Shown here: piece after piece, positions 2 to 34,333 of the stretch
How the letters are laid out: every line of letters begins with the position of its first letter
Numbering within the stretch: position 1 is the stretch's first letter
Source: a virus
Strand: one strand, 5' to 3'
Length of the DNA stretch: 38,090 nt
Virus record (IMG/VR): IMGVR_UViG_3300045996_000676
Coordinates: 1 to 38,090 of that record
Program-made: the position numbers and the translations under genes
Notes under the pieces: generated by a model
The model's database searches: none
What the model was told of the DNA's origin: nothing
The model's input: only the letters and a program-made list of their open reading frames with translations

Positions 2-163
2 CTCATTCTCCAGCCCGGCCAGTTCTACGAAATTAACGGCATCCTCTACCGCTGTCAGAAGAAAACCAAAAAGGGGTTTGAATTGCGGCGCTTCACCGGC
101 AGCATCCACATTCCCAAAGTGAATGCGACCGGGACGATGATTCAGAACGCAAAGGAGGCGTGA
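2..163 (+). CDS. C-terminal end of an unidentified phage protein
   Basis: An open frame runs from the window edge to TGA at 161-163 and gives the last 53 residues of a protein whose start lies outside the window. It is rich in basic and aromatic residues (a KKTKKGFELRRF stretch) and has no motif I recognise. Its stop overlaps the ATG of the next gene (TGATG), so the two are translationally coupled, which supports it being real. Its position directly upstream of the terminase suggests a small early-packaging or terminase-associated protein, but that is only inference. Confidence 0.6.
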   Translation, partial: LILQPGQFYEINGILYRCQKKTKKGFELRRFTGSIHIPKVNATGTMIQNAKEA

Positions 164-306
164 TGTATTGCGACAACTGCAAACAGGGGATGCTGACGCG
201 AATTATGAGGGACGGCAATAACGCGAAAATCTTCTCTACGTGCAGGAAGGACTATATCGGGTGGATATACATCGCCACCATCAAGGGGTTTTTTAAAGAT
301 TTATGA
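163..306 (+). CDS. Small Cys-containing protein, 47 aa
   Basis: The ATG at 163 overlaps the preceding stop, and the TGA at 304-306 overlaps the next start (ATGA), so this ORF sits tightly in a coupled operon. An AAAGGAGG ribosome site lies at 151-158. The 47-residue product has a CDNC pair (C3, C6) and a third cysteine at 27, like a reduced zinc knuckle, followed by an aromatic-rich C-terminal half. No family is recognised. It is one of many small cysteine-rich proteins in this genome. Confidence 0.65.
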   Translation: MYCDNCKQGMLTRIMRDGNNAKIFSTCRKDYIGWIYIATIKGFFKDL

Positions 307-926
307 GCGTAGCGGAGGACATGCTTCAGTCGTACGCGAACGACATTCCGGGGTTCATCCTCGATGAAGGCTTTTTTGTTACCCGCGACGAGCACCGACA
401 CGAAGGCGAGTATCCCTTTCCGAATCATCCCTACCAGCGCGACTATCTCCAAGAGCTGTGTGAAAACGATCTCCTTGTTGTGACGAAAAGCCGTCAGGTC
501 ATGGTGACATGGCTAACCCTGGCCTACATTCTGGCCCGCGCGCTCACCCGAAAGCATCTGCTCTCCATCCTGCAGACCAAGCGCGAAGATGACGCTATCG
601 GCATGGCCGATCGGGTCAAGTTCATGTACGACCATCTGCCCAAGTGGATACGAGACGTGCGGCCGAAAGAAGGCGGGATCCGTGAGAATCAATCCTCTCT
701 CGAGCTGGTGACGCAAGACTCGCTGATTTGGGGTGTCCCGCAAGGCGCGGATATTATCCGGTCGCACACCGTCTCGATCTTCTACGCGGATGAAGTGGAT
801 TTTCAACCCGATGCCAAGGCCAGCCTACGAGCGGCGGCACCGTCATTAGACGGTGGACAGGGGATCTGGACCAGCTCGGCATGTTTAGGGGGACTAACTG
901 GCCAGCTCATTCATGGAAGCTGGTAA
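303..926 (+). CDS. Terminase large subunit, ATPase half
   Basis: This 207-residue protein is the N-terminal motor domain of a large terminase, which hydrolyses ATP to pump DNA into the procapsid through the portal. Visible motifs are a YQRDYLQEL adenine-contact segment (residues 44-52), a Walker A-like TKSRQVMVTW (61-70), a Walker B SIFYADE (158-164) and the coupling motif TSSA (190-193). The ORF stops 14 residues after TSSA, so the RNase H-like nuclease domain is missing; it is found in the separate ORF at 1252-2427. A whole TerL is usually 450-650 residues. The stop may reflect a frameshift: the frame that opens at 881 continues as HSWKLVN, which resembles the expected TerL continuation. 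The start overlaps the upstream stop (ATGA). Confidence 0.85.
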   Translation: MSVAEDMLQSYANDIPGFILDEGFFVTRDEHRHEGEYPFPNHPYQRDYLQELCENDLLVVTKSRQVMVTWLTLAYILARALTRKHLLSILQTKREDDAIGMADRVKFMYDHLPKWIRDVRPKEGGIRENQSSLELVTQDSLIWGVPQGADIIRSHTVSIFYADEVDFQPDAKASLRAAAPSLDGGQGIWTSSACLGGLTGQLIHGSW

Positions 927-943
927 ACAGGGAGGACGGCACG

Positions 944-1255
944 ATGTTAGACGGCAAAGAGCTAGAGGACGCGATTGCAGCAAAGCCGGGCGAGAAGGTG
1001 GAGATGCATCAGATCATTAAACGGATCAAGTCGAAAAACTTCATGACGTTGGAAGGGGTCGGCTGTCCAACAGTCACGGTCTGCAACCTCATCCTGGATA
1101 ACGGCTACTCGGTGCGCGGAGAGGCGGCCTGCGTGGTTCCTGAAAATTTCGACAAAGAAATCGGCGAGACGATCGCGTATCGAGACGCCTTCGATAAGCT
1201 CTGGCCGCTGTTCGGCTTCTTGCTCGCAGAGAAAATCTACACCAGGGGCAAGTGA
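944..1255 (+). CDS. N4 gp49 / Sf6 gene 66-like protein
   Basis: The 103-residue product matches the N4 gp49/Sf6 gp66 phage family of unknown function. The diagnostic C-terminal block is visible: a GEAACV segment, NFDKEIG, then AFDKLWPLFGFLLAEK. I chose the ATG at 944 because GGAGG lies at 931-935 with 8-nt spacing; the frame is open back to 881, but that part resembles terminase sequence. The gene lies between the ATPase and nuclease halves of the terminase, and its TGA overlaps the GTG of the nuclease ORF (GTGA), so all three are expressed together. Members usually sit among small accessory genes, so this position is unusual and suggests insertion into the terminase gene. Confidence 0.8.
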   Translation: MLDGKELEDAIAAKPGEKVEMHQIIKRIKSKNFMTLEGVGCPTVTVCNLILDNGYSVRGEAACVVPENFDKEIGETIAYRDAFDKLWPLFGFLLAEKIYTRGK

Positions 1256-2427
1256 CAGACCTCCAAACCAAAACCTGCCCACGATGTCAGCGCATGTTGC
1301 CGACCGTCGACTTTGCGAAAAACGCAGAGACGAAGGACGGGCTGTACACCTATTGCAACTCCTGCAAATACGACATTGAACGGCTGAAGAAGTATCCGGC
1401 GCGGGCCATGCCGGAAGATACCGCACAGGGCAACCTCGAGCGGCCGGTACCGAAAAAAGCGGCGGTGCACGCCAAGATTCCCGTCGGGATCCTAAACGGG
1501 ATCAAGGTACCGGAAAAGGTCGAACAGACCTCACCTGGGATGTGGAAATGGACCTCCCCGAAAGGCTGGCGCGTGCTGGCCATCCACTACAGCGCCGATC
1601 CGACGAAGGATCCCCGGACGGTCAACGGCGCCGCCTGGGTCAATAAGCGCAAGGCTTCCATGTCAGAGCGCGACTGGAAGCGCGAAATGGAAATTGACCA
1701 TACGGTATCGGAGGGGCAACCGTTCTTTTCCACGTTCAACCGGTCGGTGCATGTCCGGCCGTGCGAATACGATCCGGAGCGGCCGTTGGTGCGGAGCTGG
1801 GACTTTGGGAAAGCCCATCCGGCCGTGGTGTTCGGCCAGATGGACAAGCGGAACCAGCTTCGAATCCTCTACTCGATGATCGAGACGAACAAGGATATTT
1901 TCTCGTTTGCGCCGTTTGTGCTCGGGGAAACGAATCAGCGATATCCGGGCGCGAAGCTGGTCGACTATTGCGACCCGGCCGGCTCGCAAGAAACGGACAA
2001 GGGCGCCACGACCATGATTCTCTCTCAGAAATTTGGGATCACCTTGCACTATCGCTTTTCGTTCCTGGAAGAAGGGCTCCGGATGATGGAGCAACGCTTA
2101 AAGATCCAGGAATACGGCGAGCCCGGCATGATTATCGATCCCATCAACCACGATCTGATTAACGGCTTTGCCGGCGGCTACAAGCTGGACGTCGGCGCCA
2201 GCGGCAAGGACTCAGAGGGCCGGCTGAAGAACAATCCGAAAAAGGATGGCTGGTTCGACCACCTAATGGACGCGCTCCGCTATATGTACATCGGGCTCTT
2301 CACGCTGACGGCGGATGACAAAGTGAGCGAAGCGGAAGCGTGGGATAAGGTGGGACTCTGGCGGACCAACAAGCAGCACCGGGATAAGAACGAGGACATG
2401 GAGGCGCTCGGTGAATTTTGCGGCTAA
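1252..2427 (+). CDS. Terminase large subunit, nuclease half with zinc-ribbon N-terminus
   Basis: This 391-residue protein carries the terminase linker (GWRVLAIHYSADP, about 106-117, and DWKREMEID, 141-149) followed by the RNase H-like headful nuclease. Likely metal-binding acids are D184 (SWDFG), D241 (CDPAG) and D336/D340 (FDHLMDALRY). Residues 1-90 are foreign to terminases: a C9-x2-C12/C35-x2-C38 zinc-ribbon with F21 and KDGLYTYC, the pattern seen at the N-terminus of phage HNH or endonuclease VII-type proteins, but with no HNH motif following. The start is GTG, overlapping the gp49-like stop. It should act with the ATPase half at 303-926 as a two-chain terminase, unless the RNA or protein is spliced. 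Confidence 0.85.
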   Translation: MTDLQTKTCPRCQRMLPTVDFAKNAETKDGLYTYCNSCKYDIERLKKYPARAMPEDTAQGNLERPVPKKAAVHAKIPVGILNGIKVPEKVEQTSPGMWKWTSPKGWRVLAIHYSADPTKDPRTVNGAAWVNKRKASMSERDWKREMEIDHTVSEGQPFFSTFNRSVHVRPCEYDPERPLVRSWDFGKAHPAVVFGQMDKRNQLRILYSMIETNKDIFSFAPFVLGETNQRYPGAKLVDYCDPAGSQETDKGATTMILSQKFGITLHYRFSFLEEGLRMMEQRLKIQEYGEPGMIIDPINHDLINGFAGGYKLDVGASGKDSEGRLKNNPKKDGWFDHLMDALRYMYIGLFTLTADDKVSEAEAWDKVGLWRTNKQHRDKNEDMEALGEFCG

Positions 2428-2989
2428 GGAAATCCTGGAAGGGATGCGGATCCCGAAATGGTACGGCGTGGCATACTTCGAACTCAACCGAAACGTGGCC
2501 GTGTGCTACCCGGTCCCCTTCAACTGGGTAGTGCGATGGGCGCGCGATGCCTGGCTGTTCCTCAAAAACCCTCCGCCGCAACGAGACCTAAAAGCGTTTA
2601 TGCGTGGCATTCGTCAAGGGCGCGAATTGGGAGAGGAGTACGGGCGTGAAGTCGGCTTCGACAAAGGGTACGCCGCGGCCCGGCAAATCTACCAGCACGA
2701 AAACGACGCGCAAAAAAAGGCGCTCAATCACTTCATGAAGGCGCTGGTCGACCAACACAACATGAGGCTTCCCAATGTGGTTTTGGCAACAGAAACCGTG
2801 TGCCGTGTGTGCGGAGAAAGACAAGCGATTGCAGCAGATGGAGCTACAGGCGGACATGCTAAAGATGCAGCTCCAGGACAGCCGGCTCCGGGAACAAAAG
2901 GCGATCGACTCCCTCCTTGGAGAGCGAAACCTTCCAGGCGTGACGCCACCGGCGAGGATGTCAGCGAAGGACTCCCAGGGGGCCCTTGA
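2411..2989 (+). CDS. Unidentified protein with long C-terminal overlap
   Basis: A GTG at 2411 opens a 192-codon frame overlapping the end of the terminase nuclease ORF by 17 nt. Residues 1-120 look like genuine protein: an aromatic, amphipathic N-terminal half (VPFNWVVRWARDAWLFL) and a charged helical segment. From about position 2775 it overlaps the next gene in another frame for 215 nt, and there its composition turns to Gly, Pro, Ala and Arg, as expected of an out-of-frame reading. Either the ORF simply lacks a stop and continues through the next gene, or a stop was lost by frameshift. No family is recognised. Confidence 0.55.
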   Translation: MNFAAKEILEGMRIPKWYGVAYFELNRNVAVCYPVPFNWVVRWARDAWLFLKNPPPQRDLKAFMRGIRQGRELGEEYGREVGFDKGYAAARQIYQHENDAQKKALNHFMKALVDQHNMRLPNVVLATETVCRVCGERQAIAADGATGGHAKDAAPGQPAPGTKGDRLPPWRAKPSRRDATGEDVSEGLPGGP

Positions 2990-3083
2990 TGACGCGATGG
3001 CGCTCTTTAAAGACGAGGACGACAAGGGGGACGGGCTCGTTCAAGAGGCCGATACGATCTTTTCGGAGGACCGGGCGCAATGA
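2775..3083 (+). CDS. Zinc-knuckle coiled-coil protein
   Basis: This 102-residue protein starts MWFWQQKPCAVC, with a CxxC pair, followed by a Gln/Leu/Lys-rich coiled coil (about residues 18-50) and an acidic C-terminus. Small phage proteins with an N-terminal CxxC and a coiled coil are common near terminase and portal genes, but their role is not established. A GAGG site at 2764-2767 precedes the ATG by 7 nt. Its TGA overlaps the next ATG (ATGA at 3080). It shares 215 nt with the upstream ORF in a different frame; the coiled-coil pattern favours this frame as the coding one here. Confidence 0.7.
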   Translation: MWFWQQKPCAVCAEKDKRLQQMELQADMLKMQLQDSRLREQKAIDSLLGERNLPGVTPPARMSAKDSQGALDDAMALFKDEDDKGDGLVQEADTIFSEDRAQ

Positions 3084-3334: not shown

Positions 3335-5554
3335 ATGACCGACCAGCAAATCCTAGACAGAGTGCGCGAAATCAAGCGGAAGAGCCAATACCTCCGGTAT
3401 GGGTTCGAGCGCGACATTTTCCGCAACCTCCTCTTCAAGCAGGGGCATCAGTGGATTGTCTGGGATGGCACAACCCGGCGCTTTCGGCAGAAGAAGCTGA
3501 AGAGCTGGGTCCCGATGCCGGTCACGAATAAGTTTGCCGAACTGCTCGACTCGCTCGCCTCGTTGATCCTCCGGGTAGATCCGCCCATGCAATGGCGCTC
3601 ACTGGACGATCAAGACGAAGTGAAGAAGTCCATCGCCGAAACCGCCACGGCCGCATTGGCTCGGGCGCGCGATCGGGTGCACTTCGCCAATCTCCGCCAA
3701 GAGCTGGCGACGTGGCTCGTCTATAGCGGCAACGGCTTTCTGGTCAATTCCTACGACCCGACCGGCGGACATAAATACAAAATCCCGCTGCACGAGTGCC
3801 AAGAGTGCCGCAACGTCAATATGCCTGTGGCCTTTGAGGACGGGTGCGAAGAGTGCGGCTCACAGAATCACAACATCCAGCTCGTCAACGGCCTGCCGCA
3901 AGAGCAAGAGCTAACCGGCGGCGCCGAATTCTCGGAAGTCGCCACCCCGTTCGAAATGTTCATGGACTTCTCGATTACCCAATTCCACATGCAGCCGGAG
4001 GCGCTTCGCGTGAAGACGCGCCAGCTCACCTATTTCAAGGAGCATTGGGGGGCTAAAGGCGAAAAGGTGCAAGCGTCGGGCTCGTCTACGCTGGGGGAAT
4101 TCTACGCGGCTTCGATGGCGTATATGTCCTCGGGCTCCGGGATCTCGCCGGCGGCGACGATAGCCCAGAAAATGCCGACGGCCGCGGAAGAGTGCTATTG
4201 GGTCAAGCCCTGCCAAGAATTCAAGGACGGGCTCTATCTCGTCTGTGCCGGCGACGTCATTCTCGAGAAAGACTCCCTCTCCTGCAAAAACCATCTCGGC
4301 GAGCAGTTTATCCCGGTCCAGCACATTGTCTTTGACCACATCCCCGGCTCGGCGATGGGGAAGACGGTAGCGAACGACCTCGCGCCCAAGCAGAAGCAGC
4401 GCAACGAGCTGGAGAGCCTGATTCAGCTCATCACCATGCGGATGGCGAACCCCGTCTGGATCGTCCCGTACGGAACGGACGTCGAAGGCTTCTCCGGCCA
4501 GCCGGGCGCGCTCCTCAAAGCGATTCAACTCAGCCCGAATGCCAGCGGCGAACCCAAGCGCCTCCCTGGAGAGAACGTCCCAAGCTCCGTCATGGCGTGG
4601 CTGGAGAAGATCGATAACGACCTCGAGTCGCAAGCGTCGATGTTTGACGCACTCAAGGGCAACGCCCCCCCCGGCATTACTGCCGGATACGCGATTCAGC
4701 TCCTCATCGAACGAGGACAGTCGCGGTGGGGGCCCTTATTCCAGCGGTGGGAAAACGGCTGGATGGACTGGGCCACGAACATTACGGCCTTCCAACGGGC
4801 GTACATGCCGGCCGATGAATTGCTGATGATCCTCGGGCCGCACGGTACCTGGGAAGTGGCGAAATTCAAAGAGGACGACTTTGCCGTCATCAACCTGAAG
4901 GTCGAACCGAATTCCGCCAAGCCGACCTCTTCCATTACGCAACAGGCCATCCTCGACAACCTGCTTTCAAAGAACCTGATTGACACGACCGACCCGCACA
5001 ACAAGAGCGAAATCCTCCGCATGGTCGGGATGACGCAATTCGATAACGTCTCCGACTGGGACATGAAGGATGCGGCGCGCGAAGAGCAATCCTTCCTGGA
5101 CATTACGAAGATTTTCGACCTCGCCGCGGCCAACAAGAAAATCCAAGAGCTGGCCATGTTCAACCCTGAAGCGGCGGACATGGAGGCGAAGAAGGTTCAG
5201 CAGATCACGACACAGGGCGCCCTCCGCTTCCGTCCGCAGATCGATAACCACGTCATTCATCTCTGGTCGCACAAGAAATTCGCCAAGACGGACGCCTTCA
5301 TGAAACTGCCGGCGGAATGGCAGGCCGTCTTTATCCAGCATATCGAACTCGCCGCGATGCAGATCATGCAGGAATCCCAACAGCTCGCGCTGCTCAACGC
5401 GCCACAAGCCGGACCGCCGGGGTCTCCGTCCCCTGGTGCACCGGGCAAACCTCCAGCCCCTCAGTCTGAAAAGCCTGGGGAGCTGGCGGCAAGCCCGAAA
5501 GGTGGGCACGCGCAAATGCCGGCCATGTCGGCAGGGGTACCTGGTGGGAGCTGA
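3335..5554 (+). CDS. Portal protein
   Basis: At 739 residues this is the size of a podovirus (P22-like) portal, the dodecameric ring at the capsid vertex that docks terminase and then the tail. The N-terminal region (FKQGHQW, WVPMPVTNKF, LILRVDPP) and the long central helical body (DHIPGSAMGKTVANDL, QKQRNELESLIQ) fit this family. Residues 155-174 hold an inserted zinc ribbon (C155, C158, C171, C174) not typical of portals. The C-terminus is Pro/Gly-rich and low complexity. The ATG at 3335 has no Shine-Dalgarno sequence, only an A/T-rich leader after the terminator. The stop overlaps the next start (TGATG). Confidence 0.85.
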   Translation: MTDQQILDRVREIKRKSQYLRYGFERDIFRNLLFKQGHQWIVWDGTTRRFRQKKLKSWVPMPVTNKFAELLDSLASLILRVDPPMQWRSLDDQDEVKKSIAETATAALARARDRVHFANLRQELATWLVYSGNGFLVNSYDPTGGHKYKIPLHECQECRNVNMPVAFEDGCEECGSQNHNIQLVNGLPQEQELTGGAEFSEVATPFEMFMDFSITQFHMQPEALRVKTRQLTYFKEHWGAKGEKVQASGSSTLGEFYAASMAYMSSGSGISPAATIAQKMPTAAEECYWVKPCQEFKDGLYLVCAGDVILEKDSLSCKNHLGEQFIPVQHIVFDHIPGSAMGKTVANDLAPKQKQRNELESLIQLITMRMANPVWIVPYGTDVEGFSGQPGALLKAIQLSPNASGEPKRLPGENVPSSVMAWLEKIDNDLESQASMFDALKGNAPPGITAGYAIQLLIERGQSRWGPLFQRWENGWMDWATNITAFQRAYMPADELLMILGPHGTWEVAKFKEDDFAVINLKVEPNSAKPTSSITQQAILDNLLSKNLIDTTDPHNKSEILRMVGMTQFDNVSDWDMKDAAREEQSFLDITKIFDLAAANKKIQELAMFNPEAADMEAKKVQQITTQGALRFRPQIDNHVIHLWSHKKFAKTDAFMKLPAEWQAVFIQHIELAAMQIMQESQQLALLNAPQAGPPGSPSPGAPGKPPAPQSEKPGELAASPKGGHAQMPAMSAGVPGGS

Positions 5555-7208: not shown

Positions 7209-8513
7209 ATGGCCGCTCTTGATGCACAAAGTACCGCGGTAGGCGCCTTCAACGAGGTCCTGAAAATCGACTACGAGAAGGGCATCATCGATTCACTGAA
7301 CGATGAACAGCCCCTCCTGTCGAAGATCAAAGGGGATAGCGAGTCCTGGACCGGACAGCTCGTTCAATTCCCTGCGCGCGTCAGCCGGAACCAGTCGGCC
7401 GCGGCAACCACGGAAGGCTACAAGTACCACACGCCGGGCAAGCAGACGTACAAGGACTGGCAGATTCCGGCCAAGTACGCGCACGGCTCCATCCGCCTGA
7501 CGGCTCAAGTCATGGCGGCATCGATGAAGAGCAAGGGCGCGTTTGCGCGGGCCCTCGGCTCAGAAATCGACGGGCTCGTGGAGGACATGGCCAACTACCG
7601 CGGCCGCGCCATCTGGGGCTGGGGAAACGGGGTGCTCTGCCTCGTCAATGGGGATCCGGGTACCGGCACGACCATTACGGTGGATGCGCCGCATGGAGTT
7701 GCCGGCTCGGTGAACGGAAGCCGGTTCATTCAGCCGGGGATGTTCATCGCGTTCATTAACCCGTCGGATGGCGCCATTCGCGCCGGCGGCGCGCGCACCG
7801 TAGATGCGGTGGCTGCAACCGGCCTCACCTTCACGATCACAGCGGCGGCCGATGCCGCGGTGGCCGACAACGATTACATCGTTGCTGCGATGGAATCGAC
7901 CACATCGGACGTGAACGAAACCACGTACGCGAAAGAGATTATGGGGATGCTCGGCCTGGTCGACAGCACGACCTACGTGAGCACGCTCCATAACATCGAT
8001 CGGTCGGCGTCACCGGGTAACTTCATGCAGAGCACGGTGATTAGCTCAGTCGGTGCGCTCAGCGCCGATGTGCTCCAGCGCGCCATCGATACCGTGCACC
8101 AGAAGGCGCGCGGCAAGACAGACGCGATTTGGTGCGAGCACGCCACGCGCCGGGCCTATCAGGTCATGCTGGAGAACGACCGCCGGTATATGGCGGCGTC
8201 CCTCATGAACCCGGATGCCGGCACGAAAGCGGCCAAACAGAAGAGCCTGGATTTCGGCGGGATCCCGATCGAAGTCGACAAGGATGCTCCGTACGGAACC
8301 ATGTTCGGGCTCGAGTACGACACGTTTACGCGCTGGCTCTTGACTGAGGGGGAATGGGCCGATGACACCGGCTCCATCCTTCGCTTCGTGAGTCAGATGG
8401 ATGCGTACGAGGCCGTCTACCGGATCTTCGATAACTTCGGTTGCGAAGCTCCGCAGCGAAATTGGACGCTCCGGGGGATCACGAACAACATTGTGGTTGT
8501 TCATCTCCCATAG
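7209..8513 (+). CDS. Major capsid protein, HK97 fold
   Basis: A 434-residue protein directly after the scaffold gene. The N-terminal arm (FNEVLKIDYEKG), the E-loop-like GYKYHTPGKQTY, the long helix region (LGSEIDGLVEDMAN) and the P-domain and C-terminal part (DAIWCEHATRRAYQV, FGGIPIEVDKDAPYG) fit HK97-fold capsids. Residues about 140-240 form a Gly/Thr/Ala-rich beta insertion (TITVDAPHG to AVADNDYIV), probably an extra surface or insertion domain. An AAAGGA ribosome site precedes the ATG. A strong hairpin follows the gene, which may help make this transcript abundant. Confidence 0.9.
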   Translation: MAALDAQSTAVGAFNEVLKIDYEKGIIDSLNDEQPLLSKIKGDSESWTGQLVQFPARVSRNQSAAATTEGYKYHTPGKQTYKDWQIPAKYAHGSIRLTAQVMAASMKSKGAFARALGSEIDGLVEDMANYRGRAIWGWGNGVLCLVNGDPGTGTTITVDAPHGVAGSVNGSRFIQPGMFIAFINPSDGAIRAGGARTVDAVAATGLTFTITAAADAAVADNDYIVAAMESTTSDVNETTYAKEIMGMLGLVDSTTYVSTLHNIDRSASPGNFMQSTVISSVGALSADVLQRAIDTVHQKARGKTDAIWCEHATRRAYQVMLENDRRYMAASLMNPDAGTKAAKQKSLDFGGIPIEVDKDAPYGTMFGLEYDTFTRWLLTEGEWADDTGSILRFVSQMDAYEAVYRIFDNFGCEAPQRNWTLRGITNNIVVVHLP

Positions 8514-31467: not shown

Positions 31468-32610
31468 TTACGCCTTCTTCAGCTTGGCCAGCAGCTCGTC
31501 ATACTCCGCGCTCAGCTTCCCTTTGTCCGTCTTGCTGATATCCGTCCTGGCTATAATCTCCTTGGAGATTTGATTCCAGATATCGGTCAGCATCGATGCG
31601 GAAGGGGCACTCTCGAGCAGGTCCAGGTACTCACTACAATCTGGAAGCTTCTGTCCGGTGTATGGATCCGTCGCCGGCTTCTGTGCTTCGGGCTCGGCTT
31701 CGGGCGTCAGCTCTTCAAACGCCAGATGCGTCAAGTTGCGGAACGGGGCGCCGCCTCGTGGGTTGGGCTTCTCCTCGTACTGGAATTGGACGCGCCGGCC
31801 GATGGGGTTCTTCTCGGCCTTCAGCGCCGGAGGGGTTTCGAAGGAGGACAGGGTAAGCTCGCCGCCGTTGTTGTCCAGCGCGAACGTGAATTTATGCGTC
31901 TTGACCGTCGCACTCTTCGGCGCCCAGCCCTTCAGCACGCCGGTATAGTAATCGCCGCTCTTCGTCTCGGCCTGCTTGGGCCCTTCGACTTGTGCGGTGC
32001 CGTCTCCGCTCAATACTTCAATGTCGATCGTCGGCACTTCATCATGCGTGAGGATCCCGGACAGATCGAACGGAAACGCCTTTCGCAAGGCGCCGGCCTC
32101 CGCGCACTTGCCTAGCTGGTTGTATGGCATTCCCTTTTCCGACCACATCTTGACCGGTGTTCCGTCCTTCTTCTTCTGGACGTACTCCCGCCAGCGGACG
32201 GTATGCGTATAGGCGCGCTTCTCGCCTTGGGCATCGTAGGCATACACGGTCACGGTCGCCTGCTTGGGGTGCCAAGATTCGTCAGGATCCTCGATAAATT
32301 CCGCCGGCTCAATCCCGCAGAGCTTCCCGGTGCGATGAGCCACGAGGCGGTAGCCGTCAATGCCGACCTGGATCCCCATCTTGAAACTGTCGCTCTCCGG
32401 ATCCCATCGCTTGATGGCGTAGATTTGTTTGATGAACGGATCGAGCCCGGTGCGCCGGCAGGTATAGGCGAAGAGCGAGAATTCATCGTCGGTCGTCCCC
32501 TTTGCGACCGTGCGCTTCAGGAGTTCGAGCTGGGCTTTTGTCCAGCGGGGCATGGAGAGCTTGATCTGTTTCTTCTCGGACGGGTCTACGGTCGCTACTT
32601 CTGTCGTCAT
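31468..32610 (-). CDS. bet: Bet/RecT-type single-strand annealing protein
   Basis: The 380-residue protein matches the phage Bet (lambda Red beta) branch of the RecT/Bet annealing proteins. Diagnostic blocks: LLKRTVAKGTTDDEFSLFAY, RTGLDPFIKQIYAIKRWD, MGIQVGIDGYRLVAHRTGK, and MPYNQLGKCAEAGALRKAFP with LSGILTHDE. It binds single strands and promotes annealing during phage recombination or replication. The extended C-terminal part (about 210-380) is variable. The ATG overlaps the HTH gene stop (TAATG). Its exonuclease partner is probably the RecB-like gene at 35870-36451, on the other side of attP. Confidence 0.9.
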   Translation of the reverse strand: MTTEVATVDPSEKKQIKLSMPRWTKAQLELLKRTVAKGTTDDEFSLFAYTCRRTGLDPFIKQIYAIKRWDPESDSFKMGIQVGIDGYRLVAHRTGKLCGIEPAEFIEDPDESWHPKQATVTVYAYDAQGEKRAYTHTVRWREYVQKKKDGTPVKMWSEKGMPYNQLGKCAEAGALRKAFPFDLSGILTHDEVPTIDIEVLSGDGTAQVEGPKQAETKSGDYYTGVLKGWAPKSATVKTHKFTFALDNNGGELTLSSFETPPALKAEKNPIGRRVQFQYEEKPNPRGGAPFRNLTHLAFEELTPEAEPEAQKPATDPYTGQKLPDCSEYLDLLESAPSASMLTDIWNQISKEIIARTDISKTDKGKLSAEYDELLAKLKKA

Positions 32611-33099: not shown

Positions 33100-33205
33100 T
33101 ACTGATTCTTAAATAGTTTTCAGGAATGTAAAAGATTTAATGGCTCTGTATCATAGGGCCGTCAGGGGAACGGCTCAGGTAAGTAGAAGAAAGGTCGGGG
33201 AAAAC

Positions 33206-34333
33206 ATGAGTACGTTGTATAGGTACCAGGATCCACAAAAAGGCGTGTTCCGGCTGAAGTGGTATTGCAAGGCGGGGTGTCCAAAACATCCGAAAGGCGG
33301 CGGCGCGCATTGCGTCTCACTAAGAACTAGGGACGGAAAACGCGCTAGGAGCCTCCAGGACGAGAAAGATCGGCAACTCGACCAAGAGGCCGCGCGGCTG
33401 ACGCTCGGCCTGCAGGCGCCCAAGGCGGCAAGCCGTGACATGCTCCTGACTGAGTTTCGAGACTTCTATCTAGAGAGGGCGGAGAAGGACCAGTTGGTAG
33501 GACTGGATACGCTCTATCGGAATCATCAGCCCATGCTGAATAAGCTGGTGGAATTTGCGCCGACAGCCACGCTCGAAGATCTCACGCTAGCCTGGGTGGA
33601 GCGATATCAATCGACCGTGCGCCGGCGGTACGCAGATTACGGCTGGAATAGCCGGCGGGCCACGCTCCGGGGGATCTTTAACCGGGCGGTGGAATGGCGG
33701 CTCATAGGTGAGAATCCCTTCGTGGCTCTCCAGCGGGTGAAGCGTCCCCAAGCAACCCAACCGAAACGGCTCTATCAAGAGCAACTCCCGATTATCCTCC
33801 GCCATGAACGGAAAGACTTCTGGAAGCTGGTCACGCTGTTTCTGTACATCACCGGATGCCGACTCATGGAAATGGCGCGCCTTGAACGGACCCACGTCCG
33901 GCCGGAGCTAGGCTATTTCGGAATCGTGAAGAACAAAGAGAAGCGGGTCAAACGGATCCCGCTGACGACGGTCGTACTGAAGATTATCAACCGGGCCCAG
34001 AGTCTCAGCGACTCGCCGTACGTCTTTCCCTGGAAAGGCGGACAGCTCACGCGCAACACCGTCACGCGACACTATGACCGGCTCAGCGAGAAATGCGGCT
34101 TTAAGGTCAGCGCCCATCGGTTCCGCCATGCACACGGTACCCATGCGCTCGAGCTGGGATCCAACTTAAAGGCCATTCAGGACACGCTCGGACATTCCGA
34201 CATTCGAACCACGGCAGACTTTTACATTGACGTCGATTTGAAGCACATACAGAAATCCATGGATGCCCTGGACGGCGAAACGCTGTTTGACGGTAGCAAT
34301 TTAGTAGCGCGGCCTCATAAGACCGCAGAATAA
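33206..34333 (+). CDS. int: Tyrosine-family integrase
   Basis: I prefer the ATG at 33206 (375 aa) over the upstream in-frame ATG at 33140. The C-terminal catalytic domain shows R219 (TGCRLMEM), H307-x2-R310 (HRFRH), H330 (LGHSD) and the nucleophile Y340 (DFYID), all as in tyrosine recombinases. The N-terminus has a Cys/His group (YCKAGCPKHPKGGGAHC) that could bind zinc or arm DNA, followed by an alpha-helical core-binding domain (about 75-180). It should recombine the attP just downstream with a host tRNA-Gln gene. It is divergent from the early operon. Confidence 0.92.
   Translation: MSTLYRYQDPQKGVFRLKWYCKAGCPKHPKGGGAHCVSLRTRDGKRARSLQDEKDRQLDQEAARLTLGLQAPKAASRDMLLTEFRDFYLERAEKDQLVGLDTLYRNHQPMLNKLVEFAPTATLEDLTLAWVERYQSTVRRRYADYGWNSRRATLRGIFNRAVEWRLIGENPFVALQRVKRPQATQPKRLYQEQLPIILRHERKDFWKLVTLFLYITGCRLMEMARLERTHVRPELGYFGIVKNKEKRVKRIPLTTVVLKIINRAQSLSDSPYVFPWKGGQLTRNTVTRHYDRLSEKCGFKVSAHRFRHAHGTHALELGSNLKAIQDTLGHSDIRTTADFYIDVDLKHIQKSMDALDGETLFDGSNLVARPHKTAE
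34289..34308 (+). repeat. Left 20-bp direct repeat, probable integrase arm site
   Basis: GACGGTAGCAATTTAGTAGC lies inside the 3' end of int and is repeated exactly at 34517-34536, on the other side of the tRNA-derived attP core. Each copy contains GTAGC twice. Position and symmetry fit an arm-type integrase binding site. Confidence 0.65.

Follow-up and report, generated by a model that had tools for sequence, protein, structure and literature searches.

A probable two-chain, chimeric large terminase in a clade of metagenomic viruses

The large terminase subunit, TerL, is regarded as a marker common to all tailed phages and consisting of a single chain (PMC7824862). In the TerL of D6E, Y213 is a residue of the lid subdomain that touches the P-loop arginine, and residues 230-241 form the linker between the lid and the nuclease (PMC5727402). 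The packaging ATPase of asccphi28, a phi29-type relative, has a lid of its own, through which subunit contacts are mediated (PMC8216284). The only kind of split TerL that we met with in the open-access literature, where absence is no proof of absence, is the intron case: in the Bastillevirinae (PMC11878797) and the Jug phages (PMC12363816), terL is spread over several ORFs, with other genes lying between them.

The locus considered here also has ATPase and nuclease ORFs with another gene between them. It belongs to IMG/VR virus record IMGVR_UViG_3300045996_000676, all 38,090 bp of which were analysed and are referred to below as the window. Very likely it encodes a bona fide large terminase made of two chains, which would be chimeric and would assemble in trans, the complex and its activity being predicted from comparisons of sequence.

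The divided locus and its relatives

All three genes are on the plus strand, in the order ORF A (303-926), gene B and ORF C (1252-2427). HMM searches of the window matched the terminase ATPase in ORF A and nowhere else, and the nuclease in ORF C alone; no further TerL ORF was found there with the HMMs built here. An independent contig (L002/L004) carries the same arrangement, differing by 5 mismatches and no gap in 7,424 bp (99.93% identity); the arrangement is thus real and not a sequencing error, and it agrees with an earlier, sequence-only reading of this DNA, which had placed split ATPase and nuclease ORFs at just these coordinates. A portal-like gene (3335-5554; phrog_332, 3e-8) and a gene for the major head protein (7209-8513; phrog_14242, 6e-48) indicate that A and C open a head-gene module of the normal kind. 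A temperate virus is probable, given genes at 33140-34333 and 31468-32610 (-) for a tyrosine integrase and a RecT-like annealing protein, respectively. No tRNA genes were found in the window. Two ORFs in different frames, at 2411-2989 and 2775-3083, overlap by about 215 nt, and the pair looks conserved, with a counterpart in contig L003 (6927-7349 and 7240-7563) that overlaps by about 110 nt.

Scans of 2.9 million viral contigs, made with single proteins and small alignments and being pattern-based, so that closer intact relatives may be missed, found the split in 16 distinct viral lineages, the window's included, at 30-58% identity. Twelve of these, again counting the window, make up its own clade (clade 1 below), with A chains 48-58% and C chains 49-57% identical to those of the window, while four are more distant (L043, L042, L053 and L074, the last counted for its A chain only). 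The ATPase ORF terminates at a homologous point after the coupling motif in all 16 lineages, with a stop codon that varies among TAA, TGA and TAG. In the window and its relatives, ATPase and nuclease occupy separate ORFs rather than one polypeptide, with stops in the connecting frames. An uninterrupted gene in related phages, which the sequence-only reading had named as something to search for, did not turn up: all IMG/VR contigs that exceed 45% identity to one or other chain and show both halves are split, and the viral contig scans found no homologue of the A+C type that was intact. In scans of genome contigs no close relative was found as a prophage or host copy, the one intact TerL there, in an Acidobacteria MAG, being 24% identical; no relative was found on plasmids, nor any split relative in the cultured phages collection, in which the ATPases of L043 and L053 had no match. 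All of the split genomes are metagenomic, with no cultured member. By these comparisons the split is real and old, and not an artefact.

The two chains and the position of the break

Chain A (207 aa) is, by profile and fold matches, a stand-alone TerL ATPase (ASCE) core. The motor motifs that had been read in the first ORF from the letters alone are all present in the alignments: a P-loop, KSRQVMVTW (486-512), in which the usual glycine (SRQxG) is replaced, Walker B with its catalytic glutamate, SIFYADE (774-794), and the coupling motif TSSA (870-881), as part of WTSSA, for which the tails were also compared. The stop falls 14 residues past TSSA, at a conserved point. Lys62, Arg64 and Trp70 are invariant in the ATPase alignment, D163 and E164 are so in split and intact rows alike, and S191 is invariant too; chain A has the P-loop Lys, Walker B Asp, catalytic Glu and coupling motif of a TerL ATPase, and lacks the P-loop glycine. 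PHROGs name ORF A as terminase large subunit (2e-10), a profile built only from split A chains matches T4 gp17 in the PDB (E 1e-8), and ORF A matches the HMM of intact T4-like ATPases (1e-24) and not that of H1-type ATPases. When chain A was aligned to H1-type TerLs it was misplaced, since the H1-type ATPases are another subfamily, and that alignment was discarded. Its matches in the cultured phages collection are mostly T4-like TerLs, at about 25-28% identity. The AlphaFold2 model of chain A (pLDDT 89, pTM 0.90) matches gp17 residues 103-306 with a Z of 19.8 and an rmsd of 3.4 (197 aligned), and D6E TerL 10-189 with a Z of 11.4 (VIA-align 2).

Chain C (391 aa, with a GTG start) comprises a zinc finger, a lid, a linker and an RNase H-type nuclease. 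The N-terminal zinc finger (CxxC...CxxC; residues 5-47, 1264-1392) was recognized by alignment and by PHROG matches to HNH/endonuclease VII families (1e-6 over residues 3-52), terminase appearing there as just a trace. It is missing from the C chains of three relatives (L029, L041 and L043), which marks it as an add-on, and it could add DNA or partner binding. The lid subdomain and linker helices (residues 76-150, GMWKWTSPKGWRVLAIHYSADP..., 1477-1701) were placed by D6E mapping and by conservation, the majority identity being 0.66-0.70 in lid and linker, 0.43 in the zinc finger and 0.29 in the spacer; the affinity of the lid is T4-like, weakly so, with E 0.001 over 45 columns. The RNase H-fold nuclease (residues 151-350, 1702-2301) was assigned from invariant columns and from fold matches to many TerL nucleases. 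It has the three acidic residues of a TerL nuclease, and D184, D241, D340 and H337 are invariant in the C-chain alignment. ORF C matches the H1-type nuclease HMM (2e-42) and not the T4-like nuclease HMM, and in the cultured phages collection chain C matches seven podophage-type TerLs at 25-35% identity. Its sequence had no significant match in the PDB, so the identity of the nuclease rests on the fold and on the intact H1-type relatives. The AlphaFold2 model, of moderate confidence (pLDDT 70), matches D6E TerL 212-417 with a Z of 19.4 and an rmsd of 2.3 (178 aligned), the P22 nuclease with a Z of 17.4 and gp17 356-558 with a Z of 13.6 (VIA-align 2).

From residue 106, chain C maps onto D6E 212 onward. 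Since chain A corresponds to D6E 10-189 and gp17 103-306, and chain C to D6E 212-417, the two together amount to a whole TerL, and the models place the break inside the ATPase domain, at the junction of ASCE core and lid. The sequence-only reading had put it downstream of this, at the interdomain linker, and had described the second ORF as linker plus nuclease; both of these are there, but a zinc finger of about 45 residues and the lid come first, and the mapping of the breakpoint on intact TerLs that it had called for sets it before the lid. The lid and linker of a TerL are thus present, though on chain C rather than on the ATPase chain.

Comparison of the modules by hhalign shows that the window has an ATPase from the T4-like subfamily but a nuclease from the subfamily that occurs in podophage TerLs whose motor is of the GxGxGKS type, rather than both being of one subfamily as in a canonical TerL. 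The clade-1 ATPase matches the T4-like ATPases at 9e-24 and the H1-type at 0.31, whereas the clade-1 nuclease matches the H1-type at 4e-46 and the T4-like at 0.77. The split ATPases match each other at 1e-33 to 1e-14 and the intact T4-like or L044-type ATPases at 1e-23 to 1e-8; against the GxGxGKS-type ATPases of H1-type TerLs they gave no match (E at least 0.05). The nuclease of L042 and L053 is closest to the T4-like one (3e-12; L044-type 6e-11, H1-type 0.03), so that a single clade of split ATPases has nucleases from two different subfamilies. An IQ-TREE analysis of 27 ATPases over 202 columns puts all 16 split ATPases in one clade against the 11 intact ones (support 100/100); inside that clade, clade 1 has 89/93 and the group of L042, L053 and L074 has 100/99, L043 being a long branch. 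Both chains are under purifying selection, with dN/dS of 0.08-0.21 between pairs of relatives (one saturated C pair gave no ratio), and the distances of A and C correlate (Mantel r 0.63, p 1e-4). Of the explanations that the sequence-only reading had offered, a two-chain terminase is the one favored by a split kept under such selection across 16 lineages at 30-58% identity.

None of the 16 split ATPases retains the P-loop glycine, whereas all 11 intact ones compared have it; the split pattern is K[SCG]R[QR]-hydrophobic-x-x-[TS]W, that of the intact relatives KARQLGLTW or SRQ.GK[TS]. The loss may be linked to the separated lid, and could mean weak or altered ATP binding in the split ATPases. 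Together with the different subfamilies of A and C, it can also be read as a sign that A is a repurposed or degenerate TerL-like ATPase and no motor, with C working with some unknown motor or as a stand-alone nuclease. We think this improbable, given that K62, R64, D163 and E164 are conserved, as is the coupling motif, and that no other terminase ATPase was found in the window. C moreover carries a lid, which has no known use lacking an ASCE partner, while A, C and the portal gene lie in one gene run and the A and C distances covary.

Gene B and the variable interval

Gene B (944-1255, plus strand) is a Phage_gp49_66-like gene (PF13876, E 5e-21) carried as cargo between A and C; the sequence-only reading had likewise described a gp49-like gene between the halves. 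Its ORF is open from 881 (881-1255), and the residues HSWKLVN of that frame had been likened to TerL just after the coupling motif. They are probably not a TerL remnant, because the PF13876 match begins only at residue 44 of the ORF and the better start is probably the ATG at 944, behind GGGAGG. The stop of gene B overlaps the start of ORF C (GTGA).

Gene B is not part of the terminase, since where the window has a gp49-like gene the relatives carry unrelated genes or none. In L003 the interval holds an N6/N4 DNA methyltransferase and two small ORFs, in L024 and L012 a small CxxC ORF, in L041 a DUF3310 gene, and in L042 an HNH_3-AP2 endonuclease with others. From the stop of A to the start of C there are 2 nt in L040, 34 nt in L043 and -4 nt (an overlap) in L053; where the gap is 115-1,746 nt, it is occupied by other genes. 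A tiny CxxC family (M.xGExKAxxGDxLxH...YC.xC) follows chain A in L003 (4765-4944), L024 (5626-5790) and L012 (after 1178). A small gene that precedes the ATPase in the window (2-163) has a look-alike in L026 (3122-3520), there lying between A and C, and the two share ...KKxF...LRRxTGxI...V.A.ATGTM..A; from this pair, it seems that cargo genes change places about the split.

Genes of the gp49 type are mobile accessory genes, and a recent insertion of one (or an assembly error) might have broken a functional terL in this genome alone. This explanation, which had been raised both as such and in the form of an inserted gene plus a frameshift, we consider the least probable of all, for the terminus of A is conserved whatever intervenes, nothing included. 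The same break is found in lineages without the gp49-like gene, some of them without any intervening gene, and both the near-identical second contig and the lack of an intact A+C-type homologue in our scans speak against it.

The variable interval bears equally on splicing, which had also been suggested: a self-splicing intron carrying the gp49-like gene would interrupt terL, and the spliced mRNA would give one chain. There is precedent in the group I introns of terL in the Bastillevirinae and Jug phages cited above, and an HNH-AP2 endonuclease sits in the L042 gap. The covariance-model search that had been proposed (Rfam cmscan) nevertheless found no intron, either at the gathering threshold in the window or at a relaxed threshold over 850-1650, where there was just a chance snoRNA match; L040 and L053, at 2 and -4 nt, leave no room for one. 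The gaps hold differing ordinary genes, and C has a start of its own and an N-terminal zinc finger that would disrupt any fused TerL, so that we regard an intron as very improbable. A programmed frameshift or stop read-through joining A to C is likewise hard to credit. The A and B frames overlap at 881-926, which with the B/C overlap looks like coupled translation, and the C frame of L040 runs open as far back as A; but in most genomes that frame meets a stop only a few codons before the C start, the relation of the A and C frames is inconstant, the stop codons of A differ, and gaps of up to 1,746 nt are taken up by other genes. Two proteins are therefore the more parsimonious reading.

The HNH_3 and AP2 homing-endonuclease-like gene in the A-C gap of L042 (6499-8244) is a possible relic of the splitting of terL. 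As a matter of speculation, the zinc finger of chain C may have been left behind by a homing endonuclease that at one time divided terL, since it resembles phage HNH/endonuclease VII fingers, and the L042 gene would fit.

The proposed motor and known systems

The reading that we prefer is that A and C belong to one operon and are translated separately, the gene between them being neither spliced out nor read through, and that they would reassemble non-covalently into the packaging motor on the portal. Chain A would provide the ASCE core; the lid (transmission) subdomain, linker and nuclease would come from chain C, which has a variable zinc finger ahead of them. The lid of C would dock on, or close over, the ATP cleft of A, making intermolecular the contact of P-loop arginine and lid that is intramolecular in ordinary TerLs, and C would place its nuclease below the ring of the motor. 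As the lid mediates subunit contacts in asccphi28 (PMC8216284), C may in addition hold adjacent A subunits together. The split would be ancestral to one virus clade, the nuclease module having been exchanged between terminase subfamilies after it or along with it, with the outcome that the window's clade and L043 have a nuclease of the H1/P22/D6E type and L042 and L053 one of the T4 type. We infer complex formation and activity, as well as the stoichiometry of the motor and the order and direction of the exchange, from the comparisons above.

That engine and cutter come from different terminase families in the window's group suggests that the motor can be built from interchangeable parts. More tentatively, and at somewhat under even chances, such a motor, in an ancient viral lineage, may be separable in a stronger sense: the ATPase engine and the lid-nuclease would be independent and interchangeable units joined by an interchain, ATP-sensing lid contact, the nuclease could be substoichiometric or recruited only at initiation and termination, and terminase subfamilies could evolve by the swapping of subunits. 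In either event, separate engine and lid-nuclease chains would be a ready tool for asking whether the lid couples hydrolysis to translocation, and would permit testing of the need for the nuclease during translocation and of the ratio of engine to nuclease. Because the natural split is stable and a single ATPase clade goes with two nuclease subfamilies, a TerL tree built on one domain can mislead. Annotation that expects a TerL of 400-600 aa can miss such viruses: Pfam made no call above cut-off for chain A or chain C, and PF03237 and PF17289 had no match above cut-off in six split-terminase records.

Among the systems already described, T4 gp17 shares with chain A the fold and motifs of the ATPase core, and its subfamily. 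But gp17 is one chain with lid and nuclease, whereas chain A stops before the lid and has no glycine in its P-loop, and the nuclease of the window belongs to a different subfamily. The TerLs of the D6E/P22/SPP1 type and the H1-type podophage TerLs (e.g. MW202477) have a nuclease like that of chain C in fold and sequence; they differ in being single chains, and the H1-type TerLs compared have a GxGxGKS-type ATPase without detectable similarity to chain A. The split terL genes of the Bastillevirinae and Jug phages have group I introns whose splicing restores the chain, while here there is no intron match and the gap is inconstant or zero. The phi29-type packaging ATPase is, as chain A is, a chain without a nuclease. 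That of asccphi28 has its own lid, in contrast to chain A, which has none and is paired with a lid-nuclease chain. Finally, the herpesvirus terminase subunit 3 (UL15 type) has a coding sequence that is discontinuous in the genome and a fold that matches chain A with a Z of 13.5; its parts, unlike those proposed here, are joined by mRNA splicing into one chain.
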